NCBI GenBank assembly: GCA_003215655.1
Contig: QCKB01000011.1
Span: 1 to 38,632, forward strand
DNA from: Prochlorococcus sp. AG-409-J16
GTDB lineage: Bacteria; Cyanobacteriota; Cyanobacteriia; PCC-6307; Cyanobiaceae
Direction of reading: 5' to 3'
DNA length: 38,632 nucleotides
Below the pieces are notes generated by a model. It was given only the letters and a program-made list of their open reading frames with translations, was not told where the DNA came from and did no database searches. The position numbers were made by a program, and so were the translations under genes. Within the stretch, counting starts at the first letter, position 1; each line of letters opens with the position of its first letter. This document shows positions 1-37,748 of the stretch, piece by piece.

Positions 1-1
1 A

Positions 2-439
2 TGGCCTGCTGGAATTGGCGGCAAAGGGAATGCTGGTGTGGCGGGTTATATCCGCAACACACCTGGTGCCATTGGCTATGTCAACCAGTCATATATCAAA
101 GGTGTAGTCAAGGCTGCTGCTCTTCAAAACTTGTCTGGCGAGTATTTGAAGCCAACCACAGCTACAGGTGCTACAGCACTCAACGGCATTCGACTAGACC
201 AAAACTTGGCTGGTCAGAATCCCAATCCAACTGCAAAAGGCGCTTATCCAATTGCTACGTTGACCTGGGTCTTGGCCTATGAGACAGGTAATGGCTCTAA
301 GACGGAAGCCATTAAAGAAGCTTTAAACTACCTATTAAGCGATAAGGCTCAAAACAAAGCCCCTTCACTTGGCTTTGTTCCTCTGAAGGGTGACATCCTT
401 AACAAGGCACGCGCTGCCGTAAATAGGCTTGGAAACTGA
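2..439 (+). CDS. pstS: Phosphate ABC transporter substrate-binding protein PstS (C-terminal part)
   Basis: The open frame enters from the left edge (first full codon at base 2) and ends at TGA 437-439, so about 145 C-terminal residues are present. The stretch around AGYIRNTPGAIGYVNQSY followed by a YPIATLTWVLAY segment is characteristic of PstS, the periplasmic phosphate-binding protein that feeds PstCAB. The late YPI...W region and the LGFVPL tail close the second lobe of the binding fold. A terminator hairpin follows within 50 bp, so this is the end of a transcript. Its position beside arsenate genes fits, since arsenate enters cells through phosphate transporters. The N-terminus and signal peptide lie outside the window. 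Confidence 0.9.
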   Translation, partial: WPAGIGGKGNAGVAGYIRNTPGAIGYVNQSYIKGVVKAAALQNLSGEYLKPTTATGATALNGIRLDQNLAGQNPNPTAKGAYPIATLTWVLAYETGNGSKTEAIKEALNYLLSDKAQNKAPSLGFVPLKGDILNKARAAVNRLGN

Positions 440-486
440 GTTTTAGGGTCAATTTAATAGGAGCTTTGATCAACTCCAAAATTTTT

Positions 487-515
487 AAGAGGGGTATTTT
501 TTAACCCCTCTTTTT
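487..515 (+). terminator. Rho-independent terminator of pstS
   Basis: An AGAGGGGT arm pairs with ACCCCTCT across a T-rich loop, followed by a T run. It lies 48 bp after the pstS stop. The opposing arsJ gene ends at 555, so the hairpin separates convergent transcripts. Confidence 0.85.
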
Positions 516-554
516 ATTGGCTATATAAAGATTTGAAATCATTTAATTATGGAC

Positions 555-1826
555 TTATAGCGAACTTCCTTTAAGCGATACAGGGTTAATTAATGATGGT
601 AGACGTAAGCTACTTAACCATGAGAAGAGCACGAGTACACTGGAGCACCATAAACAAAGTTGCATCCCTATAGTTGCATTCTCTCCAAGCATAAATAAAG
701 CTCCTGAAAGTAATGTTCCTAGAAGCCTGCCGGCTGCATTCGCCATGTAATAGAAACCAACATTCAGGCTCACGCTATCTGCATCGGTATAAGCCAACAC
801 CATGTAGGAATGGATAGATGAGTTCATTGCAAAAACCACTCCAAAAGCAATTAAGCCAGCGGTAATAGCAATGCCTGGATCACTCTGCCTCCACAACGCA
901 ATAGCGATGAGTCCAGGAATTGCAGTAAGAACAGCACTCCAAAACTTAATTGTAGAAACTCCTGGGCTGGATTTTTTGCCCCAGACATTCCTTAAAGTAG
1001 GCGCTAACGCCTGCACAAAGCCGTAACCAATCACCCATAGTCCTAGAAAAGCTCCAATCTCTGAAAAGTTCCAGTTAAGAGATGTCTCTAGAAAAACAGG
1101 TAATGCAACGACAAACCACACATCTCTAGCTCCAAAGAGAAAAAAACGTGCCATAGAAAGTGCGTTGATCCCTTTGGATTTTGAAAATAGATCTTTAAAC
1201 ATCGGCTTCTCCTTCATACGCCCCATATCACCAGGCAAGACCAGAGTCAAAACAAAAGACAGAGCCAGGCCAAATGCCATTAGCTCAACGGCCTTATTGA
1301 AACCAAAACTAATCAGCAAAACTCCACCCAGAAAAAATCCCACACCCTTGAGAGCATTTTTGGAACCTGTTAGAACCGCAACCCATTTAAATAATTGCTT
1401 TTTACCTTTCTGTTCTTCTTCCGGCGTTTCAGGAACAACTGTTTTGATTGCACTCTTTGCACTCATTTTGTTGAGGTCTTTGGCGATGCCACTGATTGCT
1501 TGCGCAACCATGACATAACTAACGCTTAACAACTTTGGCCAACTAGCAGCAACAGGAACCAACATCAGTAGAGCACCTATCTGCAGAAGAGTTCCCGCCC
1601 ATAGGGTTAGTCGTAAGCCATAGCGAGCACCAATCCAGCCGCCATACAAATTGGTAATGATGCCAAAGAACTCATAAAAGAGAAAAAGAAAAGCAATTTC
1701 TAAAGCTGTATATCCAAGCTGATGGAAATGAAAGACCACCAACATGCGAAGAGCGCCATCAGTCAGAGTGAAAGCCCAGTAATTGGTTGTTACAACGCCG
1801 TATTGCTGTAAAGCTGAAAGTTTCAT
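555..1826 (-). CDS. arsJ: ArsJ-type MFS organoarsenical efflux permease
   Basis: This 423-residue protein has about twelve hydrophobic segments, as in a major-facilitator transporter. It opens with QQYGVVTTNYWAFTLTDGALRMLVV, recognisable as the ArsJ start (shown here in pieces: NYWAFTLTDGALR). In characterised bacteria ArsJ exports 1-arseno-3-phosphoglycerate, the unstable product made when GAPDH uses arsenate in place of phosphate. The gene lies 3 bp downstream of a GAPDH gene on the same strand, the typical arsJ-gapdh pair, and arsR is divergent upstream. The ATG at 1826 gives a normal family length. The assignment is strong because protein and neighbourhood agree. Confidence 0.88.
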   Translation of the reverse strand: MKLSALQQYGVVTTNYWAFTLTDGALRMLVVFHFHQLGYTALEIAFLFLFYEFFGIITNLYGGWIGARYGLRLTLWAGTLLQIGALLMLVPVAASWPKLLSVSYVMVAQAISGIAKDLNKMSAKSAIKTVVPETPEEEQKGKKQLFKWVAVLTGSKNALKGVGFFLGGVLLISFGFNKAVELMAFGLALSFVLTLVLPGDMGRMKEKPMFKDLFSKSKGINALSMARFFLFGARDVWFVVALPVFLETSLNWNFSEIGAFLGLWVIGYGFVQALAPTLRNVWGKKSSPGVSTIKFWSAVLTAIPGLIAIALWRQSDPGIAITAGLIAFGVVFAMNSSIHSYMVLAYTDADSVSLNVGFYYMANAAGRLLGTLLSGALFMLGENATIGMQLCLWCSSVLVLFSWLSSLRLPSLINPVSLKGSSL

Positions 1827-1829
1827 CGA

Positions 1830-2864
1830 CTAACTCTTATCCTTAGAACCCAATGACACCACATGAGAAACAAGGTCTGCCATCCGACAGCTATAACCCC
1901 ATTCGTTGTCATACCAAGCGAACACCTTTAATTGATTTCCATCAACAACCATCGTTGACAAGGCATCAATGATTGAACTTCTTGAATCATTTACATAGTC
2001 AATAGAAACAAGAGGCTTCTCTTCATAGCCAAGAATGCCTTTCAAATCTCCTTCGGAGGCACTTTTAAAAGCTTGGTTCGCTTCTTCTACGGAGATTTTG
2101 CGATTTAACTCAAAGACAGCATCCGTGAGAGAGGCATTTAGGAGTGGAACACGAACAGCATGTCCGTTTAATTTGCCTTGAAGCTCGGGGAAAATCATTC
2201 CTATAGCTTTAGCCGAACCAGTTGTAGTGGGGATGAGGCTTTGAATACTGCTGCGTGCTCGCCTTAAGTCGCTTTTAAAAGAGTCAATTGGAACCTGTGT
2301 ATTGGTGATGTCATGAAGAGTGGTAATAGCTCCATGCATGATTCCAAAGTTTTCATGGACGACTTTTACGACTGGCGCCAAGCAGTTAGTTGTGCAAGAA
2401 GCAGCTGTGACAACACGATGAATATTTGGGTCATACAGGTTGTGGTTAATTCCATAGACGATGTTGAGTGCTTCTTCTCCTGCAACTTGTCCTGTTACTG
2501 GACAAGCAACGATGACCTTACTTAGTCCGAGTTTGTCGAAATACGGGCTAAGGGCTTCTGGAGTTTTGTTCTTACCCGAGCAATCCAAGACAATATCTAC
2601 GCCTGCATCTCTCCATGGGCAAAGGGTGAAATCACTTTTCTGGGCGTAGCTCAAAACATGTTCATCAATCAGTATTTGAGACAAGCCAGATCGAATCGAA
2701 TGAGTCCAACGCCCATGAACAGAATCAAACTCAAGCAAATGCGCAGCAATTTTTGCATCACCAGCAGGATCATTAATCTGAACTAACTCAATATTTGGTC
2801 GACCCCATAAAGCACGAAAAACAAGACGACCTATGCGCCCAAATCCATTGATTCCAATTCGCAT
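1830..2864 (-). CDS. Glyceraldehyde-3-phosphate dehydrogenase, arsenate-detoxification type
   Basis: This 344-residue GAPDH has the N-terminal Rossmann motif INGFGRIGR, the catalytic loop ASCTTNC (active-site Cys near residue 157), and the C-terminal WYDNEWGYS signature. The longest frame begins at a TTG at 2873. The ATG at 2864 places the family-standard MRIGINGFG at the N-terminus and is preferred. It is followed after 3 bp by arsJ and divergent from arsR, so it is probably the arsenate-accepting enzyme making 1-arseno-3-phosphoglycerate rather than the Calvin-cycle enzyme. That role is inferred from context. Expression is probably controlled by ArsR through the operator at 2926-2943. Confidence 0.9.
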
Positions 2865-2925
2865 GCAAGACAATTGCAGAAAAACCGAAGAGCCCCACGA
2901 AGCGACCCATCAACTTATTTTGATA

Positions 2926-2943
2926 CATCAAATCCACTTGATG
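2926..2943. promoter_or_regulatory. Putative ArsR operator between GAPDH-arsJ and arsR
   Basis: CATCAA and TTGATG form a perfect inverted repeat with a 6-bp spacer. The core ATCAA-N6-TTGAT is the type of half-site used by SmtB/ArsR repressors in cyanobacteria. It lies 62 bp upstream of the GAPDH ATG and 58 bp upstream of the arsR ATG, so a single repressor could control both directions. Confidence 0.7.
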
Positions 2944-3001
2944 AAGGCGAATTCTCAAATTCTTATAAAATCAAATCGATATTTCTTTGGCTGCTTCGTT
3001 A

Positions 3002-3322
3002 ATGGGTTCAGTCGTAGCCCAATCACAGGCGAGAGACCTGCTTAAAGCTTTGGCGGATCCTCTGAGATTGCAAATCATTGAATCCTTGTCTGGCGGAGAA
3101 AAATGTGTCTGCGATCTCATTCAAGAGATAGGTCTTGCTCAATCAAAGATTTCCTTTCACCTTAAGGTCCTTAAAGAGTCTGGCCTTATCACTGATAGGC
3201 AAAGTGGGCGCTGGGTTTACTACAAACTGGATATAAGTGCATTAAATGAATTACAACTTTGGCTGAAACAACTCACACAAGACTGTCAGAAATCATCAGC
3301 TAGCTGTGAAAACAATGCGTAA
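3002..3322 (+). CDS. arsR: ArsR/SmtB-family arsenic-responsive repressor
   Basis: This is a 106-residue winged-helix protein. The metalloid-sensing motif GEKCVCDL (Cys 35 and 37) matches the CVCDL box that binds As(III) in ArsR proteins. It is followed by the recognition helix region QSKISFHLKVLKESGLI and a wing ending GRWVYYKL. Two more Cys occur in the C-terminal tail. The longest frame starts at TTG 2987; the ATG at 3002 is preferred. It is divergent from GAPDH-arsJ with an inverted-repeat operator between them, indicating autoregulation and control of the detoxification pair. Its 3' end overlaps the opposing small ORF at 3300-3437 by 23 bp. Confidence 0.9.
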   Translation: MGSVVAQSQARDLLKALADPLRLQIIESLSGGEKCVCDLIQEIGLAQSKISFHLKVLKESGLITDRQSGRWVYYKLDISALNELQLWLKQLTQDCQKSSASCENNA

Positions 3323-3437
3323 TGCTGAGGCAACTAATCCTTGAAGTCGCTGGTATTTCTAGAAGCGTGCAAACAGCAAGCAAGTCATCCGTGCCAACTT
3401 TGAGCTGCTCAGCAAGCTCTAAAACTCTGATCGTCAT
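3300..3437 (-). CDS. Small IF2-N-like protein overlapping the integrase stop
   Basis: This 45-codon ORF begins at an ATG whose bases overlap the integrase TGA (ATGA), so translation is probably coupled to the recombinase. The first 25 residues (TIRVLELAEQLKVGTDDLL and on) strongly resemble the N-terminal domain of translation factor IF-2, a short three-helix fold that also occurs alone. Small DNA-binding helical proteins beside integrases often act as directionality factors. Whether this one does is inference only. It could be a fragment of a longer gene, and the tail after residue 30 does not look conserved. It runs antisense into arsR by 23 bp. Confidence 0.5.
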   Translation of the reverse strand: MTIRVLELAEQLKVGTDDLLAVCTLLEIPATSRISCLSITHCFHS

Positions 3438-4654
3438 TTCGCTACTGGATATTGATCGAATGATTCAGCCAAATCTCTCGTCTTAAACCTGGCATAGCTC
3501 AAAAGGTGAGTATCCAAGGTGTGCCCCATTGCATCAGCTATTTGCTTCGGTGCTCTGTAACTCCCATCTAACTGAGGACGGTTGTGTCCGTAATAGGCAT
3601 AGCGATGCCTAAAGCTGTAAGGGGTAAGTTCCTCCTTCTCTTTGGCAGCCTCAGAACGCAGTGCCTTCCAGAGGTCTTGTCTTCTTAGATAAGTCCCAAT
3701 CGCTTCACCTGCCTTTCCCTCTTTCCCTAAAGGTGGTAATGACTCATTGGCTGCAACTCTTGCTTTCAATGTGAAATTCCAATCCACTGGAGTGCCGTCA
3801 ATATCAAGAACCCATATAGGAAATAACTGACGAGGTTCCGTAGTTTCACCTTTGCGACCTCCTTTGGATTTTTGATAGCTGGTCCATAGTTCTGCCCCAT
3901 TTTGCTTGGTATGGATCTCACGTAGGTCTTCTGGTCTTAAGCCATAAACAGCCATTAACTGAATAGCAAATCTCCATCGATGACCCGTGTCATTTTGAGG
4001 TAACCCTTCAACCAACCTGATGATTTGAGAATCAGTAAGAGGGAACCCAATTCTTTTGGTCTTAGTCACAACCTCGTCATCACTCATTGCTGGTGGAAGC
4101 CATGAGGAAGGAAAATCTCGACGCTGAACACAGAAATTCAGGAATGAATAAAGGGCCAATCTCATATGACGACGCTGTGCTGTTCCCTTCCCCCATTGAT
4201 CAAGCGCTATCTCAGAAAGCTTTGGGCCATTCGATGATCTCCTTCCACTATTCAGAACAGCAATAGCTCTATCAAGAACGGGTTTGTACTTAATTTTCCA
4301 GGTCGAATCTTTAACTCTGGTTTTGAACTTCCGGAAGTTTCTTATTGCCTCTTCCCAATCCAATTCGACTTTGCTGCTAGCTGAATCTGCAATTTGAAAA
4401 GCAGTTCTTAAATCAATTTTCTGATGGTGTTCTAAATAGATCGTTGCTGCAGTTTCGATTCTTTTTAAAGCTGGTATCCAATCGGATTCTTCCCAGTAGT
4501 AAGGGAGAGAGATGGATTTGATATTGGGTTTCTTCCCAACTTGAAGACGAATCTTCCCACGGTCATTCATCACCATCCATCCGACAGGACAAGTTGCCTT
4601 GAGTCCTTGGCGGAAACTTTTCACCCAATTGGCATCTTCTGCACGTTTAGGCAT
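3434..4654 (-). CDS. Tyrosine recombinase / integrase
   Basis: This 406-residue protein has a SAM-like core-binding part (about 95-180) and a C-terminal catalytic domain. Visible catalytic residues are Arg240 in VYGLRPEDL, a Lys-rich KSKGGRKG beta-hairpin region, Arg349 in PYSFRHRYA, His378 in MGHTLDTH and the nucleophile Tyr387 in LSYARF. The usual first His of the HxxR box is Tyr346, a change seen in several phage-type integrases. The start codon faces a 45-bp copy of the 3' end of tRNA-Pro 161 bp away, consistent with site-specific integration at that tRNA. This layout resembles tycheposon recombinases of Prochlorococcus; the subfamily is inferred. The frame is intact, so the enzyme may be active. 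Confidence 0.88.
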   Translation of the reverse strand: MPKRAEDANWVKSFRQGLKATCPVGWMVMNDRGKIRLQVGKKPNIKSISLPYYWEESDWIPALKRIETAATIYLEHHQKIDLRTAFQIADSASSKVELDWEEAIRNFRKFKTRVKDSTWKIKYKPVLDRAIAVLNSGRRSSNGPKLSEIALDQWGKGTAQRRHMRLALYSFLNFCVQRRDFPSSWLPPAMSDDEVVTKTKRIGFPLTDSQIIRLVEGLPQNDTGHRWRFAIQLMAVYGLRPEDLREIHTKQNGAELWTSYQKSKGGRKGETTEPRQLFPIWVLDIDGTPVDWNFTLKARVAANESLPPLGKEGKAGEAIGTYLRRQDLWKALRSEAAKEKEELTPYSFRHRYAYYGHNRPQLDGSYRAPKQIADAMGHTLDTHLLSYARFKTRDLAESFDQYPVAK

Positions 4655-4710: not shown

Positions 4711-4815
4711 CGGGATCATTAGCGTTCACTTACGTTCAATTCAATTCCGTCTTATGCAAGGCAGGAACTTAGTTATTGGTTAGCTTTTCTGTGTATCACT
4801 TGAGATGACCGTATG

Positions 4816-4860
4816 CTTTGGGAGCACTAGGTCGCAGGTTCGAATCCTGTCGCCCCGACT
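4816..4860 (+). repeat. Attachment-site copy 1: 3' part of tRNA-Pro(TGG)
   Basis: These 45 bp match the anticodon-loop-to-acceptor portion of cyanobacterial tRNA-Pro: CTTTGGGAG with anticodon TGG, a T-arm GGTTCGAATCC and an acceptor strand CGCCCCGA. No 5' half precedes it, so it is not a functional tRNA. An identical 45-bp copy lies at 6912-6956, with degenerate copies further right. Together with the adjacent integrase this marks an attachment site. Confidence 0.85.
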
Positions 4861-5072: not shown

Positions 5073-6485
5073 TTAGAACTGGAAAGTTGTTTTAACTAAG
5101 CCACCGGTAACGTCATCAGCACCATCTTTCTGAATTGTGAAAAGAGCAGGTGTAAGGGTGACATTGTCACTAACAGCCATTGAGTAATAAACCTCATAAG
5201 CCAGAGGATCGTCATAGCCAGAGTCATCTCTATGGCCTTCGGCAGTGCCGATTGCTACTCCAAGATCATTACCTTCAGCACCGAAATCGCTCCACACAAC
5301 TCCAATAGACCATGTGGTCTCATCTTCGATGTTGTTGGTGTCATCTTCCTTTTCAGGAGTTTTCCATCCCATGCCTGCGCTGAATGCAAGGCTGTTTTCT
5401 AGTCGATAGACGCCGCTAATTCCATAGGCGTCATAGTCATTGGTATTTGCAGTGTTTGTTGAGTTCCCTCCATCAGAAGTGGTGTAAATAGCAGCAACTG
5501 TGAAGTTATCTCCATTCCAAGAAAGCTGAGCACTTAAATCATCAGAACCTTGTTCTGTTAAAACACCTTGAGATGCATCATCTGCTTCATCAGAAACAAA
5601 GAGAAGTGATGCGCTCAATTGATTTTGTGAGTAGGTGATACCTGCTCCAGCACCCATTGCTTTGCTATATGCAGCATTAGCTCCTGCATGGGTCAAGACA
5701 TTCAAAATGGAATCACTTGGATATGCACTGGGCCATACGCCAAGTAGATCATCTTGACGAAGCTTTGCACCAAATGTTGCGTTAAAGTTATCGCCTACTG
5801 GGAATTTGTAGTAAGCACGGTGGAGATTTAACCCATCACTACTGTTGAAAGCCGTCTCCAAGCGTGCACTGCCCATCATTCCAAATGGATCCATGTTGTT
5901 GAAGTTGCCAGTTCGAATAACCGTTTTCAACAAATCCTTACCAGTAAAGCTTGTATGAGCCATTAGCTTGGTGTCGTAATTAAAAGTGACTGCTTCCTTA
6001 CCGCTGACTCCATCAACACCACCAACTACAAAACTAGTTTTTCCCATAATCATGGTTCTTGGAACATGTTCTCCATGTCCCATAGCTGAGTGATCCATAC
6101 CACCTGCATCTGCTACTAGTTCTGAGGAACGACCTTTGATTACAGAAAGTTCAGATCCGAACTCAGTGATTAGGCGACTCTCTTCTTGGTTAACCTGGGC
6201 AACTTCGCCGAGGCAGGTGTTAAGAAGGTCAGCTGCTTCATAGCGAGTCATGCTGCCTTGAGGATTGGCTGCTAAACATCCATGGCGTTCAGCGAGTTGA
6301 GTTAAGGCCTGATGCGCCCAATCATTTGGATGAACATCAGAGAATTCTGAGATGCTCTTGACTTCTGAACTAGAAGCTGAGTAGACGGAAATACCATTGA
6401 CATTTAACTCAGCGGCATTGGCAGCCATAGGAGCTACAAGGCCCAACGCAGCTGGCGCTACCAGCAATTTCTGAAAAAGTTTCAT
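5073..6485 (-). CDS. Som-type outer-membrane porin with SLH domain
   Basis: This 470-residue protein has a signal peptide of about 24 residues (basic start, hydrophobic core, ANAA cleavage site). An S-layer-homology domain (about 46-95, FSDVHPNDWAHQAL ... MTRYEAADLLN) anchors to peptidoglycan. A long beta-strand-rich barrel follows and ends in the aromatic terminus TTFQF typical of outer-membrane proteins. This is the cyanobacterial Som/OprB-like architecture for small-solute diffusion. A His/Met-rich insert, MDHSAMGHGEH, between the SLH part and the barrel is unusual and might bind a metal. The ribosome-binding site GAGGA is 6 bp from the ATG. The gene lies alone between two identical tRNA-derived repeats, so it looks like cargo of an integrative element. 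Confidence 0.88.
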   Translation of the reverse strand: MKLFQKLLVAPAALGLVAPMAANAAELNVNGISVYSASSSEVKSISEFSDVHPNDWAHQALTQLAERHGCLAANPQGSMTRYEAADLLNTCLGEVAQVNQEESRLITEFGSELSVIKGRSSELVADAGGMDHSAMGHGEHVPRTMIMGKTSFVVGGVDGVSGKEAVTFNYDTKLMAHTSFTGKDLLKTVIRTGNFNNMDPFGMMGSARLETAFNSSDGLNLHRAYYKFPVGDNFNATFGAKLRQDDLLGVWPSAYPSDSILNVLTHAGANAAYSKAMGAGAGITYSQNQLSASLLFVSDEADDASQGVLTEQGSDDLSAQLSWNGDNFTVAAIYTTSDGGNSTNTANTNDYDAYGISGVYRLENSLAFSAGMGWKTPEKEDDTNNIEDETTWSIGVVWSDFGAEGNDLGVAIGTAEGHRDDSGYDDPLAYEVYYSMAVSDNVTLTPALFTIQKDGADDVTGGLVKTTFQF

Positions 6486-6708: not shown

Positions 6709-6758
6709 ATGGATCGAGTTTTGAACAAACTAGTTTTCCCAAAGCACTAGGTCGCAGG
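6709..6758 (+). pseudogene. Gene start truncated into a partial tRNA-Pro fragment
   Basis: A very strong ribosome-binding site (TTAGGAGGTG, 6697-6706) precedes ATG 6709, but the frame stops after 13 codons (6750), exactly where a 16-bp piece of the tRNA-Pro repeat (AGCACTAGGTCGCAGG, 6743-6758) begins. A run of nine G and the GC-rich block AGGGGGCGCTAG follow. The picture is of a gene 5' end cut off at a recombination junction. The original gene cannot be identified from 13 residues. Confidence 0.45.
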
Positions 6759-6911
6759 GGGGGGGACGCTCTAGGGGGCGCTAGAAGGTTGAAAGCCCTT
6801 TAAATACGTTCTAATTCCTTGCAATATTGAGTCTCAAATCGATTTTTATCATTTCTAAAGGCCCTTTTATAGCAATGGTTATGAGCAAGTCTCATCCTTT
6901 GAGGCATTGTC

Positions 6912-6956
6912 CTTTGGGAGCACTAGGTCGCAGGTTCGAATCCTGTCGCCCCGACT
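6912..6956 (+). repeat. Attachment-site copy 2: 3' part of tRNA-Pro(TGG)
   Basis: This is identical over all 45 bp to 4816-4860, while the flanks differ completely. The two copies bracket the porin and lie 2,096 bp apart in direct orientation, as expected for an excisable or formerly excised segment. Confidence 0.85.
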
Positions 6957-7037
6957 AGGGATAATCTTTTATTTGCAATGGTTTTGGCTATTATCTAGTC
7001 AGCCCAATATTTTGTTGGCCCCCTTGAAAGTCGACTG

Positions 7038-7166
7038 TCAATCAAATACAGAGTAGCCATTGCTTTGTTCTTGCTTATCTGCTGGTAGCTCAGTAACGGT
7101 GAGGTATATAAACAGGATTGTGAGCGGGCAGAAAACGATCCGAGCGATAGGCCAGAAGTAGCGCAT
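7038..7166 (-). CDS. Micro-ORF, single-span membrane protein (cluster gene 6)
   Basis: This 42-residue protein has one hydrophobic segment (about 8-24, ARIVFCPLTILFIYLTV) and a polar C-terminus. Its ATG overlaps the TAA of the upstream ORF in TAATG, which implies coupled translation. It is the last gene of the leftward arm of the micro-ORF cluster. I do not recognise the family. Confidence 0.6.
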   Translation of the reverse strand: MRYFWPIARIVFCPLTILFIYLTVTELPADKQEQSNGYSVFD

Positions 7167-7282
7167 TAGTCCTCTCTGGGTATTCCCATATTTCTGTTCT
7201 TCTTGTCCTTATTGATCTCCTCCTTGACCTTGTTGTAGTAAGTGATCTCTTCAGGATCATCTGAACCAAGTCCATATCCCAT
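7166..7282 (-). CDS. Micro-ORF, small soluble charged protein (cluster gene 5)
   Basis: This 38-residue protein starts MGYGLGSDDPEEITYY and is rich in Lys, Glu and Asp with no membrane span. A longer frame in the same DNA (7090-7275) is Arg-rich and looks like a shadow. This frame was chosen because both its ends fit the coupled arrangement, with TAATG to the next gene. Function unknown. It is the only clearly soluble protein of the leftward arm. Confidence 0.6.
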   Translation of the reverse strand: MGYGLGSDDPEEITYYNKVKEEINKDKKNRNMGIPRED

Positions 7283-7336
7283 CGTTGCTGCCAGGTAAAT
7301 CTTGTGTTGTCTATGAGAGGTAAGAGTCACCGATCT

Positions 7337-7459
7337 TTATTGCTTTCCAAAAAACCTTTTGAATTGCCAAACCAGGTAAGCAGTAGTTCCTACAAATAAA
7401 AACAAACCGACAGTCCCTACTGCTCGATTGGCGGCTTCAACAGTTGGCCAGTTATCCAT
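7337..7459 (-). CDS. Micro-ORF, single-span membrane protein (cluster gene 4)
   Basis: This 40-residue protein has a short polar N-terminus (MDNWPTVEAANRA), one span (about 13-32) and a basic tail (QFKRFFGKQ), suggesting the tail faces the cytoplasm. Its ATG overlaps the end of the upstream ORF by 8 bp. The size and topology resemble small photosystem or cytochrome-complex subunits, but no such subunit is recognised. Confidence 0.65.
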   Translation of the reverse strand: MDNWPTVEAANRAVGTVGLFLFVGTTAYLVWQFKRFFGKQ

Positions 7460-7652
7460 CCTTTTTACCTTTACCAAATAAGGGGCCTGTAAACAAAAAA
7501 TAGCCAATAGCTACTAGAAACAAAACAAAGGCAATGAGGTTTGGGAGTATCCCTCCAATAATTTCAGCCTTAGCGAAATAAGTATTCGCTGCTTCGAGAC
7601 CTAGAACGCTCATAACGACAAATAATCGGGCGTAATTATCAGCAAAATTCAT
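7452..7652 (-). CDS. Micro-ORF, two-span membrane protein (cluster gene 3)
   Basis: This 66-residue protein starts at ATG 7652 (MNFADNYARLF); the TTG at 7658 is less likely. It has two hydrophobic segments (about 9-25 and 33-55) and a basic tail ending GKGKKDG. The ATG is coupled to the upstream stop by TAATG. A clearly related, disrupted copy exists at 18500-18722, also preceded by the end of the same upstream ORF. The pair is therefore an old conserved unit in this genome. Function unknown. Confidence 0.7.
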   Translation of the reverse strand: MNFADNYARLFVVMSVLGLEAANTYFAKAEIIGGILPNLIAFVLFLVAIGYFLFTGPLFGKGKKDG

Positions 7653-7759
7653 TACCAATCTGGGTAGATGAAATCATCACCTATTTGTTCCTCATAGAAG
7701 TCCCCTGCTGCGATGCCTCTTTGGTAAGCGTAGAGAAATGTAAGGAGTAATTGGCGCAT
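7652..7759 (-). CDS. Micro-ORF, small amphipathic protein (cluster gene 2)
   Basis: This 35-residue protein has a hydrophobic start (MRQLLLTFLYAYQ) and an acidic, aromatic end (DDFIYPDW). Both stop and start overlap the neighbours (TAATG). The DFIYPDW tail and its junction to the next ORF recur in decayed form at about 18506-18531, which supports it as a real gene. Confidence 0.6.
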   Translation of the reverse strand: MRQLLLTFLYAYQRGIAAGDFYEEQIGDDFIYPDW

Positions 7760-7932
7760 TAGTTTTCATCTTTCTTTCTAAACCCTTTCCACACCAGTGG
7801 ATTTTGACCTTTGGTCATCACAGTGATGGCACGGCCAAGAAACCAAGAACCCACGAGAAATCCAACAGCAGCAATCCCATAAAGAAGGTTTACTTGGCCA
7901 GTCGTCCCTAATAGATAAAAGGTGTTATGCAT
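7759..7932 (-). CDS. Micro-ORF, two-span membrane protein (cluster gene 1)
   Basis: This 57-residue protein starts at ATG 7932; the longer frame would need TTG 7950. It has a hydrophobic N-terminus, a main span (GIAAVGFLVGSWFLG) and a basic tail. The span and what follows resemble the protein at 17369-17548 (GVLVGSWLFGAA), so the two are probably paralogs. It is first in the leftward operon and couples to the next gene through TAATG. Confidence 0.65.
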   Translation of the reverse strand: MHNTFYLLGTTGQVNLLYGIAAVGFLVGSWFLGRAITVMTKGQNPLVWKGFRKKDEN

Positions 7933-7999
7933 CCCTCTATTAAAAGTCAAAACTACTCATAATCATGTCGTGACGTTTAGCAAACGCTAGAAAGGACAC
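7933..7999. promoter_or_regulatory. Divergent promoter region of the micro-ORF cluster
   Basis: Only 67 bp separate the leftward and rightward micro-ORF operons, so both promoters and any shared operator must lie here. A CATAAT hexamer and a 5-bp inverted repeat CGTTT-AGC-AAACG (7974-7986) are visible. The rightward gene has AAAGGA before its ATG. One regulator could control both arms. Confidence 0.5.
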
Positions 8000-8134
8000 A
8001 TGAACCACCTCATTGCTACCTACATCAATTTCATCCAGACCATTGGAGTCTTGGTGACCTTTGGTGTTGCTGCCTATGCGGTTAAACAGATGCTGTTTTC
8101 TGTAGAGAAGGTACAAATCAAAGTAGAAGACTGA
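8000..8134 (+). CDS. Micro-ORF, single-span membrane protein (rightward gene 1)
   Basis: This 44-residue protein has one span (about 5-27, TYINFIQTIGVLVTFG and on) and a mixed-charge tail. The ribosome-binding site AAAGGA is 5 bp from the ATG. It opens the rightward arm. No known family is recognised. An opposing 87-aa frame over the same DNA has biased composition and is dismissed. Confidence 0.65.
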   Translation: MNHLIATYINFIQTIGVLVTFGVAAYAVKQMLFSVEKVQIKVED

Positions 8135-8135
8135 A

Positions 8136-8306
8136 GTGGATGCTCTTGACCCACTAAGCCAGGTTGCTGGAGGTAATGCTTCTTCTCCGCTGCTTCTGAT
8201 CATGGGATGTATTGGAGCGTTTTTTGCTGGTGCTTTGATAACCTCGCTAATGAGAGGAAGGAAAGAGCAGGGTTGGTTTCAAGGGAAGGAGAAAGACGAT
8301 CAATGA
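8136..8306 (+). CDS. Micro-ORF, single-span membrane protein (rightward gene 2, GTG start)
   Basis: This 56-residue protein is read from GTG 8136, one base after the previous stop. It has a polar N-terminus, one span (about 18-38, LLLIMGCIGAFFAGALI) and a strongly charged tail (RGRKEQGWFQGKEKDDQ). Its TGA overlaps the next ATG (ATGA). Unknown function. Confidence 0.65.
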   Translation: MDALDPLSQVAGGNASSPLLLIMGCIGAFFAGALITSLMRGRKEQGWFQGKEKDDQ

Positions 8307-8434
8307 CTAATCGCGAACGGAAATTTTATGACGACTCGTATGAAGAGGTAGAAGAACGACTCAGGGAGCAAGATTCAGACGAAGAAGATCGTGCTTACTT
8401 CCCTGTTGAGGAGTCAAAACCTCCCCATTACTAA
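8303..8434 (+). CDS. Micro-ORF, highly acidic soluble protein (rightward gene 3)
   Basis: This 43-residue protein consists mostly of Asp, Glu, Arg and Tyr, with no membrane span, and probably forms one amphipathic helix. Start and upstream stop overlap in ATGA. Among mainly membrane products it could be a soluble partner or regulator; this is inference. Confidence 0.6.
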   Translation: MTNRERKFYDDSYEEVEERLREQDSDEEDRAYFPVEESKPPHY

Positions 8435-8447
8435 AAGGAGAGAAGAG

Positions 8448-8573
8448 ATGAAACCTCATGCTCTAATACTTGTTCTCGTCTTATTAATGACTTTGGGCGA
8501 ATAGCAACAACATTTGTGTGCAATAGGGGCACTATGGGCTTTGCCTTGGGTTCTTTCCGAAACGCAAAAGTAG
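8448..8573 (+). pseudogene. Micro-ORF interrupted by an in-frame TAG (rightward gene 4)
   Basis: An excellent ribosome-binding site (AAAGGAGAG) precedes ATG 8448. The frame codes a hydrophobic segment (MKPHALILVLVLLMTLGE), meets TAG at 8502-8504, and then stays open for 22 codons with a second membrane-like segment (AIGALWALPWVLSETQK) before TAG 8571. A single base change would restore a 41-residue two-span protein. It could be a recent nonsense mutation, a sequencing error, or a real 18-residue peptide. Confidence 0.5.
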
Positions 8574-8597
8574 AATAGAAATACGCTGCTAATACAA

Positions 8598-8735
8598 ATG
8601 GGATTTCCACACTGCCCGATTTGTATAGCTTTAACGTTTGTAGCCCTTTGCTTAGGAGCTTCTCGAAGTCTCTTGTTATTGTTTCTTTTTAGGGTGTTTT
8701 CAAAGAGAAGAAATACTTTTGTCTTTAATTTTTAG
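8598..8735 (+). CDS. Possible micro-ORF, hydrophobic protein (rightward gene 5)
   Basis: This 45-residue ORF has a CPIC motif near the N-terminus, one hydrophobic stretch (ALTFVALCLGASRSLLLLFLF) and a basic tail. It follows the micro-ORF cluster in the same direction by 24 bp. There is no clear ribosome-binding site, so support is weak. Confidence 0.35.
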   Translation: MGFPHCPICIALTFVALCLGASRSLLLLFLFRVFSKRRNTFVFNF

Positions 8736-8788
8736 CGTCCTAAACCCTGGTGACTTTCATTAGCCTTATTAAGGACTGAAGCCTTTTA

Positions 8789-8900
8789 CTTTGGGTGCAA
8801 TAAATTGCAGGTTAGAAGCCTGTCGGCCCGATTGACTTTTTGCGAATCTTATCTGACAAAGGCCAGCTCTAGGGGTAGAGAGATTATTGCAACCTGGCTT
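8789..8900 (+). repeat. Decayed attachment-site copy with its flanking block
   Basis: The 45 bases 8789-8833 align without gaps to the tRNA-Pro repeat with 36 matches by my count (TTTGGG, GCAGGTT, CCTGTCG and CCCGA are kept). The following ~65 bp also resemble the flank of copy 1 (GACTTTTTG..., CTCTAGGGG, ATTATTGCAA). It lies just beyond the micro-ORF cluster. It is probably the oldest junction of the series. Confidence 0.65.
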
Positions 8901-9052
8901 ATCTAATGCGATGTGCCGGTGATTCAGCTACATCCTTGTGGAATCTTGAAAATTGATTAACTGAGTTTGTTAGTGGAGGCTGAAGAGATTCCCTTTTTCA
9001 TAGAAATTCCAAGAGAGATATGTAATGCTTCTTCGAGTCGTAATTTCTTTTG

Positions 9053-17368: not shown

Positions 17369-17548
17369 TCAGTCATTTATGTCGTCTTTGCTTCTCTTTC
17401 CTTTGCTGTAATTCACAATTAAGGCATAGGCAGCACCAAAGAGCCATGAGCCAACCAAAACCCCAATGACTACAAGAACTATTTGCAATGCAGCTGCATA
17501 CCCCCCATCATTTGGGCCGTATTGCATTGCTGGGCTAAGAGGATCCAT
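17369..17548 (-). CDS. Small single-span membrane protein, paralog of cluster gene 1
   Basis: This 59-residue protein has a Gly/Pro-rich N-terminus (MDPLSPAMQYGPNDGG), one span (about 20-46) containing GVLVGSWLFGAA, and a basic tail. The span resembles FLVGSWFLGRA of the protein at 7759-7932. It lies alone, with its stop against the T tract of a convergent RNA element. Unknown function. Confidence 0.6.
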   Translation of the reverse strand: MDPLSPAMQYGPNDGGYAAALQIVLVVIGVLVGSWLFGAAYALIVNYSKGKRSKDDIND

Positions 17549-18333: not shown

Positions 18334-18499
18334 AGATGTTCAAATATTCATTGATCTTTTTTTCTGTTTTTATCAGGAATTGTCCTTTCTGTTCGTCTTT
18401 CCTGCTTATGAGCAGAATCTGCTGCTTTCAAAATTAATTGTATTTCTAAATCTCTTTGAAAGGGGCCTTTTAGGCTAAGACTCTAATGAAGTGTCAATA

Positions 18500-18722
18500 G
18501 ATAATGATTTCATTTATCCAGATTGGTAATGATTTTGCTGATAATTATCTTCGTTTATTATCATGACCAACACCCTAAGCCTTGAAGCCAGCTATACATA
18601 CATTGGCAAGGCTGAAATTCTCTGAGGGTTTTTGTCGAATCTCTTTGCTTTTTTATTTTTTTTACAGGGCGATTTGCTATTTTTTGTTTATTGGACCATT
18701 ATTTGGTAAACAGAAAAATAAT
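18500..18722 (+). pseudogene. Decayed copy of micro-ORF cluster genes 2-3
   Basis: The DNA here aligns with 7452-7690 read leftward. It starts with the end of gene 2 (DFIYPDW, then TAATG). It continues through FADNYLRLL, then stops, then IGKAEIL, another stop, and ends with TATTTTTTGTTTA and TTATTTGGTAAA, where the intact gene has FLFTGPLFGK. At least two in-frame stops and an indel break it. It lies just upstream of the SemiSWEET gene, whose ATG follows its end. Confidence 0.75.
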
Positions 18723-18724
18723 AC

Positions 18725-18997
18725 ATGATCAATCAAGTAATAAATGCTGATACATTTGGTTTTATAGCCGCTTTTCTAACGACAATTGCGTTTTTACCGC
18801 AAGTAATCAAGACATGGAGAACTAAAAAGGCTGAGGATGTATCAGTCGTGATGTTATTGACTTTTATCATAGGGCTTTTATTTTGGATAGTCTATGCAAT
18901 AAAGAGCAATGCTTTTCCAGTCCTTATTGCCAACATAGTTACCTTTATATTCAATGTTACAATCCTAATTTTAAAATTGATCTACGGAAAAAAATAA
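18725..18997 (+). CDS. SemiSWEET-type sugar transporter
   Basis: This 90-residue protein has three membrane spans, the full length of a bacterial SemiSWEET. The PQ motif is in FLTTIAFLPQVIKTWRTKKA, followed by DVSVVMLL. The second and third spans carry the conserved W and N of the family (FWIVYAIKSNAFPVLIANIVTFIFN). SemiSWEETs dimerise to pass sugars across the membrane; the substrate here is unknown. It begins immediately after the micro-ORF relic. Confidence 0.85.
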   Translation: MINQVINADTFGFIAAFLTTIAFLPQVIKTWRTKKAEDVSVVMLLTFIIGLLFWIVYAIKSNAFPVLIANIVTFIFNVTILILKLIYGKK

Positions 18998-19791: not shown

Positions 19792-20058
19792 TTGCGACTT
19801 TTTTTAGAATCACTGCTTCTTTATTTTCTCGAAAGAAAAACTTTAACCAAGTTTTATTTCAAGATTGTTTATTTGTTCAATATCGGAGTCATTTTTATAT
19901 CAGTTATTACTATAGCTAGGGTTATGAAAAGAGTTGAGTTGAATCCGGAAAGTGAGGAGGTCGGCAATGTATTCAAAATCATTGCGATTTCGGTTACTTT
20001 AATTCTCAACTTAATTGCCTTTAGTTGGTTGATTTTCTTTTCAGGCCTTATTAAATGA
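19792..20058 (+). CDS. Hypothetical small membrane protein (TTG start)
   Basis: This 88-residue frame has two hydrophobic segments (about 22-43 and 63-86) and an acidic middle (ELNPESEEVGN). No ATG occurs before the middle of the protein, so a TTG at 19792 is assumed. It may be a truncated gene. Confidence 0.4.
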   Translation: MRLFLESLLLYFLERKTLTKFYFKIVYLFNIGVIFISVITIARVMKRVELNPESEEVGNVFKIIAISVTLILNLIAFSWLIFFSGLIK

Positions 20059-20612: not shown

Positions 20613-20852
20613 ATGGGCAATTCATTACAAAAGGCATTTTTAGGTGTTATTTCAATTGGTGTTTCATGCATTGCAATCGAACTGATTCCAGTTTCTAGGC
20701 AAGCTGCCTATTGGAATCGTTGTTTAGACAATTCACTTATGTGGGCAAATGAATCATCAGACTTGATAAATTGGTCAAAGAAGGCTAAGGAATCTCTTGC
20801 AGTTGGACTATGCAATGGCGCGGTATACGAATCAAAATTAAAAACAGACTAA
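20613..20852 (+). CDS. Small exported protein with N-x-C ... CNGA pattern
   Basis: This 79-residue protein has an N-terminal hydrophobic segment (about 8-26) that serves as signal or anchor. The mature part opens RQAAYWNRCL and ends near VGLCNGAVYESK. Two other proteins in this window (31135-31347 and 36528-36887) have the same layout: a span, then N-x-C-[LI], then a C-N-G-[GA] near the end. The two Cys could form a disulfide in the periplasm. Function unknown. Confidence 0.65.
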   Translation: MGNSLQKAFLGVISIGVSCIAIELIPVSRQAAYWNRCLDNSLMWANESSDLINWSKKAKESLAVGLCNGAVYESKLKTD

Positions 20853-37488: not shown

Positions 37489-37659
37489 TCAGGCTGCATA
37501 CACACCGATCATCCACCAGATTGACTGTATGTCTAATGAATGAAGTTGATGGAACAGTTGAGCCTTGCTTGCGAATTCAAAAAGGCCAATAAACGAAAGC
37601 CCAATCATGGCTAACCTCCCATTTGCGATCTCAGCGATTCTCATCTTTTGAGGAGACAT
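37489..37659 (-). CDS. hli: High-light-inducible protein (Hlip)
   Basis: This 56-residue protein has the chlorophyll a/b-binding-like helix AEIANGRLAMIGLSFIGLFE, containing the ExxNGRxAMxG motif (Glu10, Asn13, Arg15) that binds chlorophyll and pairs helices. A short C-terminal tail follows. Hlips are one-helix thylakoid proteins that protect photosystems under stress and are frequent in Prochlorococcus islands and cyanophages. It is too short for many ORF cutoffs. AGGAG-type bases were not seen before the ATG. Confidence 0.88.
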   Translation of the reverse strand: MSPQKMRIAEIANGRLAMIGLSFIGLFEFASKAQLFHQLHSLDIQSIWWMIGVYAA

Positions 37660-37748
37660 GAGGGGAAATACCTAGCTCTCCCCCTTTATAGCATATCTAA
37701 GGATTTTTACCTAGGCATTTGCACTGGGCTTCGGCTCTATGCGGGGCA

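Follow-up and report, generated by a model that had tools for sequence, protein, structure and literature searches.

Tycheposons are among the closest described counterparts of the locus analysed here. In PMC10872708 they are summarised as large cargo-carrying elements of 4–200 kb that lie at one of seven tRNA genes and possess a tyrosine recombinase, and PMC10654061 presents them as mobile elements to which Prochlorococcus apparently resorts instead of canonical transfer mechanisms. The genomic islands of Prochlorococcus contain short unannotated ORFs together with phage- or light-responsive genes (PMC2518516). We analysed a stretch of 38,632 bases from Prochlorococcus sp. AG-409-J16 (hereafter the window, whose positions are used throughout). 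It contains a cluster of nine micro-protein genes, named A1 to A6 (minus strand, heading away from 7932) and B1 to B3 (plus strand, from 8000). We consider it likely that this cluster is the passenger block of a tycheposon-like island, which would have grown as one element after another inserted at the 3' end of tRNA-Pro(UGG); this degree of confidence applies to the genetic architecture and not to the function.

The likeness to tycheposons lies in the array as a whole, which combines a tRNA 3' end as target, a tyrosine recombinase, nutrient-type cargo and a modular content. Boundary copies derived from the tRNA are found at 4815–4859 and 6912–6955 (both exact) and at 8789–8831 (decayed), and the intact tRNA-Pro gene of this genome lies on another contig (C15). 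The recombinase (3434–4654) belongs to the array and not to the micro-gene block alone. Two features set the block apart from tycheposons: an integrase gene is missing from it, and its micro-protein families have no family model. Cargo is present in the array; the block alone measures only 1.8 kb, and contig breaks hide the full length that would be compared with the range of 4–200 kb. Integron cassettes provide a second comparison, i.e. small passenger segments lined up at a single site with apparently the newest nearest the anchor, but here the site is the 3' end of a tRNA and not attC hairpins, the recombinase is of another kind and the segments have their own divergent region. Coleman et al. 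reportedly observed in 2006 repeated tRNA-Pro pieces in hypervariable Prochlorococcus islands rich in small genes. Repeated tRNA-Pro fragments are common to those islands and to this one, whereas the fragments of the present island go together with particular micro-gene families and with arm-like repeats. HLIP genes are likewise multicopy, island-borne and encode small single-span proteins. In contrast to them, the nine proteins lack the chlorophyll-binding motif ExxNGRxAM: a motif scan found one site in the window, at 37492–37671, far from the cluster. A link to HLIPs was rejected on this ground, and also because an HLIP gene lies within reach in no more than a minority of the related loci. 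As far as our searches show, the micro-protein families and the swapping of their partners are undescribed; the original tycheposon and island papers could hold an earlier mention.

Along the window the array consists of a PstS/arsenic segment with the integrase, a tRNA-Pro end, a SomB porin, a second tRNA-Pro end, the micro-genes and a decayed tRNA-Pro end. The tyrosine recombinase of the innermost segment (3434–4654, minus strand) matches only general integrase models (PHROG integrase, 4e-12), and a copy 99% identical to it adjoins a tRNA-Pro fragment in the related locus L117. Beside it, and beyond the porin as seen from the micro-gene block, lies the exact tRNA-Pro(UGG) 3' end fragment at 4815–4859 (plus strand), followed by GGGGCGCT repeats spaced by 11 bp; the integrase and this fragment of its own are 2.1 kb further in than the micro-gene block. 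The middle segment carries a SomB-type iron uptake porin (5073–6485, minus strand; NCBIfam NF033921, 3.6e-43). The inner boundary of the block is the exact fragment of 44 bp at 6912–6955 (plus strand), upstream of which a truncated second tRNA-Pro remnant with arm-like repeats is present (6735–6790, plus strand). The outer boundary is the decayed 3' end at 8789–8831 (plus strand), followed by remains of arm-like repeats. It matches the 3' end of tRNA-Pro(UGG) at 35 of 43 positions, against a maximum of 26 in 200 simulated windows, and the region 8789–8952 gives a 74% alignment with the att region that adjoins the L117 integrase. The initial annotation had placed tRNA-derived attachment copies around the block, and these are real, one being exact and the other decayed.

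The micro-gene block is apparently the outermost of three segments stacked at the tRNA-Pro site. The simplest account would be successive integrations at one tRNA gene, the oldest segment lying outermost, an order that we infer because the contig with the intact tRNA-Pro is a different one. Each integration would regenerate the tRNA and push the older segments outward. The outcome would be a row of segments parted by tRNA-Pro 3' ends, of which the outermost copy is here the most decayed. Conserved gene ends would then serve as sites of homologous recombination by which neighbours are exchanged.

Several observations were made on the surroundings of these segments. The remnant at 6735–6790 lies inside a unit of 224 bp (6731–6954) in which a truncated piece of tRNA-Pro, a run of G and arm-like repeats precede a full tRNA-Pro 3' end, and this unit recurs at 77–83% identity in four related loci (L024, L097, L103 and L131). 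Upstream of the integrase, positions 1–3322 of the window encode the C-terminal part of PstS, then ArsJ, an ArsJ-associated GAPDH and ArsR, i.e. an arsenic-detoxification set adjoining phosphate uptake. In locus L176, which is contig C15 of this genome, the intact tRNA-Pro is followed downstream (positions 2035–4168) by genes for a RepA-like ATPase of the AAA_25 family and for two small proteins resembling DNA-binding ones; this is probably another integrated element.

The block itself consists of short frames arranged in two compact runs (7038–8434) that diverge from each other, with 67 bases between them. On the minus strand A1 (7759–7932) encodes 57 residues with one membrane span (dN/dS 0.18, 6 homologues); it aligns with members of the B2 family, and A1 and B2 are thus placed in one superfamily. 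A2 (7652–7759) encodes 35 residues with a conserved tail, DFYEE..GDDFIYPDW (dN/dS 0.29, 15 homologues), and A3 (7452–7652) a membrane micro-protein of 66 residues that belongs to a multicopy family (dN/dS 0.17). They are followed by A4 (7337–7459; 40 residues, one span, dN/dS 0.15, 18 homologues), by A5 (7166–7330), which has a GTG start and encodes a soluble protein of 54 residues predicted to form a helical hairpin (dN/dS 0.19), and by A6 (7038–7166; 42 residues, one span, dN/dS 0.22, 12 homologues), whose C-terminal end is variable. On the plus strand are B1 (8000–8134; 44 residues, one span, dN/dS 0.36, 9 homologues), B2 (8136–8306; 56 residues, GTG start, one span) and B3 (8303–8434), an acidic soluble protein of 43 residues (dN/dS 0.18, 9 homologues).

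Junctions between these genes are tight. A1/A2, A2/A3 and A5/A6 overlap by one base as TAATG, A3/A4 by eight bases and B2/B3 by four (ATGA), while A4/A5 and B1/B2 are separated by six bases and one base respectively. The intergenic region between A1 and B1 (7933–7999, 67 bp) aligns at 79–87% as one divergent unit in five relatives (L024, L067, L069, L070 and L209). No match to the sigma-70 consensus was found in 6900–8900, and we therefore claim no promoter. Hydropathy gives a single clear membrane span for A1, A3, A4, A6, B1 and B2; A5 and B3 are soluble and A2 is borderline. The positions, overlaps and sizes (35–66 residues) proposed by the initial annotation, its 67-bp region common to two divergent operons, and its picture of mostly membrane proteins accompanied by two soluble ones all agree with these data.

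The distribution of the families was determined in 400 sampled Cyanobiaceae genomes. The A3 family is present in 83 of them; a single genome has as many as 8 matches, and many of the matches are decayed. The family was not found in the other cyanobacterial families sampled, and all the named genome loci found belong to Prochlorococcus. The A5 family reaches 135 genomes, including those of a large genus (g18) in whose sampled members A3 was not found. The A1/B2 superfamily occurs in 133 genomes and extends to a few genomes above 2 Mb. Since many of the loci compared come from single-cell genomes, some absences or truncations may be assembly gaps.

Related genes are also found outside the cluster. 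Profile matches identify a further member of the A1/B2 superfamily at 17372–17548 (minus strand), and tblastn a decayed A2-A3 copy at 18434–18725 (plus strand) with stops inside the A3 match. A PQ-loop/SemiSWEET-like protein (18725–18997) lies directly behind this copy, and two more micro-protein families are encoded at 19792–20058 (MKRVELNPESEEVGN..) and 20613–20852 (MGNSLQKAFLGVISIGV..); in L069 the relatives of both are lined up in a single run immediately after A2. A second copy of A4 (G000, contig C1, 618112–618231) is situated about 200 bases from the contig end, which suggests that repeated micro-gene modules break the assembly.

As to function, we tentatively propose, without counting it as probable, that the proteins work mostly independently of one another, each as a single-span peptide with an accessory or regulatory part in the membrane machinery of the host, under conditions differing from ecotype to ecotype. 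This functional clause, which draws on membrane topology and distribution only, is the weak step of our reading. We read the families as a shuffled set of membrane and small soluble micro-proteins that stand alone and form part of the cargo of tycheposon-like islands, with a biochemical role that we infer.

The main rival to stand-alone host-membrane peptides, although rather unlikely, is that some of the proteins, A3 foremost, serve the element itself, by exclusion of a second element, control of excision at the membrane or export in vesicles or capsids. It draws on the position of A3 in surface-type loci. There the stop codon of A3 is exactly 102 bp from a convergent tRNA-Pro 3' fragment in 11 places, and 79–108 bp from it in 3 more. 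At this constant distance, and with several copies per island at most, A3 adjoins an attachment site. The interval contains two direct repeats of 8 bases spaced by 11 bases together with a terminator-like hairpin. Some elements have GAGATCCC as the repeat and others GAGGGACC, both copies changing together, and the corresponding repeats beside the integrases of the window and of L117 are of the GGGGCGCT and GGGTAGCT types. These repeats may be recombinase arm sites. Against a service to the element, many copies of A3 lie at a great distance from recognised tRNA fragments, no mobility protein resembles A3, many copies are decayed, and the adjacency to att may reflect no more than an element end inherited as a unit. 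The stronger proposition that every A3 copy stands beside an att site was rejected, as most copies are not near a recognised tRNA fragment. Also unlikely, in our judgement, is a related reading in which the proteins form a combinatorial membrane set shuffled gene by gene at the coupling junctions, A3 being a hallmark of tRNA-Pro-targeted elements and acting in their maintenance or transfer.

Two further observations concern the neighbourhood of these genes. In surface-type genomes (loci L200 and L201), A5 is also close downstream of an intact tRNA-Thr. An out-of-frame, helix-turn-helix-like stretch (..W.KIAEIYGVSPSTARRWS..) follows A3 in L118, L122 and L124 and was seen at many surface-type A3 genes; it is possibly a transposase relic.

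To the initial annotation the tight coupling suggested a fixed stoichiometry, as in a membrane complex. The idea that the nine proteins are subunits of one such complex, with translational coupling setting their proportions, is in accord with the gene overlaps, with the order A1-A6 kept in several low-light relatives (e.g. L070 and L071) and with the divergent unit conserved in five loci. But partners are exchanged at the coupled junctions themselves. Downstream of A2, always with the overlap of one base, is found A3, or an MSKVKL.. protein (MSKVKLNPEAEEV.., L069), or an MNYQLL.. protein (MNYQLLLECHAQG.., L082); TAATG overlaps also link unrelated replacement genes. A4 is followed by A5 or, in L073, L075, L076 and L078, by a DUF2905 protein instead, and B1 by B2 or by an MLNTYLL.. 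protein, with B3 next; in most relatives the MLNTYLL.. protein stands in the place of B2. Across many Prochlorococcus genomes the same families occur in varying subsets, orders, neighbourhoods and copy numbers. In the related loci 59 of 94 A3 matches, a count that takes in some partial copies, lack a neighbour from any of the other families, and A5 occurs without A3 across the whole sampled genus g18.

Partner exchange and solitary A3 genes argue against an obligatory complex of fixed stoichiometry and for reusable operon parts, and we regard the single complex as quite improbable. In low-light relatives A1-A6 tend to stay together, as do B1 and B3, so some pairwise interactions could still take place. 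Judged from their repeated swapping in relatives, the genes look like interchangeable mobile parts of the island and not like the subunits of one fixed complex. If partners are swapped by recombination, as proposed above for the passenger block, tight coupling would reflect compact reusable operon modules. It had also been suggested that the block is transferable as a whole. Its place in an island slot and its varied neighbours in relatives speak for transfer; against the wholeness, the block is devoid of an integrase, one att copy is decayed and the modules move and decay piecemeal.

We compared the nine proteins with known families, viruses and structures. Nothing above chance was obtained in Pfam, NCBIfam, PHROGs or PADLOC. 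The profiles of the A3, A5, A4 and A1/B2 families gave nothing significant against all PDB sequences, and in particular no match to a solved small subunit of cytochrome b6f, of the photosystems or of NDH; for A2, A6, B1 and B3 the check for known subunits was made in Pfam and NCBIfam only. Within this scope the earlier statement that no photosystem, cytochrome or NDH subunit is recognisable holds. The structural model of A5 is a helical hairpin (pLDDT 82) without significant match in a fold search, and that of A3 is one long helix (pLDDT 75), uninformative on function.

The same searches bear on an anti-phage or phage-derived module, i.e. holin-like or abortive-infection peptides, which we find highly unlikely. 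The island location, the phage induction of other Prochlorococcus island genes (PMC2518516) and very weak scores for a PHROG holin (0.06) and a PADLOC 2TM effector (0.04) point in its direction. These scores are however at chance level, and no match to an anti-phage defence system was found in PADLOC (best E-value 0.039). A pattern scan of 2.9 million viral contigs detected no relative of the A3, A1/B2 and A5 families, and each of the listed phage-record matches in the cluster region falls on the tRNA-Pro piece, with no micro-protein relatives among them.

Nine of the eleven possible ORFs are real genes. In other Prochlorococcus each of them has 6–18 homologous frames, and the conservation check (Ka/Ks) proposed in the initial annotation found all nine conserved, with dN/dS of 0.15–0.36; for B2 the only measure that could be computed was pN/pS, at 0.32 (pN 0.27, pS 0.85). 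In-frame stops are almost absent from the nine gene alignments while the other frames are stop-rich. The ratio is also lowered in the antisense frame −1, as expected from the coincidence of third positions, yet this frame is stop-rich. The alignments thus point clearly to purifying selection on the nine frames.

The two remaining ORFs were rejected as genes. B4 (8448–8504, plus strand, 18 residues) resembles the signal-peptide start of an SNase-domain protein of L117 (MKPHALLLVLFLVLAPPALA..), a secreted nuclease encoded after B3 in the place equivalent to B4; since it matches only the first residues of that signal peptide, it is probably the truncated remnant of an SNase-like gene and not an independent one. 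B5 (8598–8735, plus strand, 45 residues) has a single weak homologue with 50% identity, and constraint on it is undemonstrated. Of the "about ten" coupled micro-proteins announced initially, nine are retained. That most of the frames would be chance ORFs in a decaying island, as the many decayed copies in these islands and the failure of B4 and B5 might suggest, is refuted for A1-A6 and B1-B3 by this frame-specific selection and can be set aside.

Nine conserved families without match in the libraries consulted, clearly under purifying selection and swapped as operon parts, mean that current annotation misses part of the functional content of these islands. The fixed link of 102 bp between A3 and a tRNA-Pro fragment provides a marker for locating element ends, and it puts A3 forward as a candidate, open to test, for a membrane protein associated with the element.
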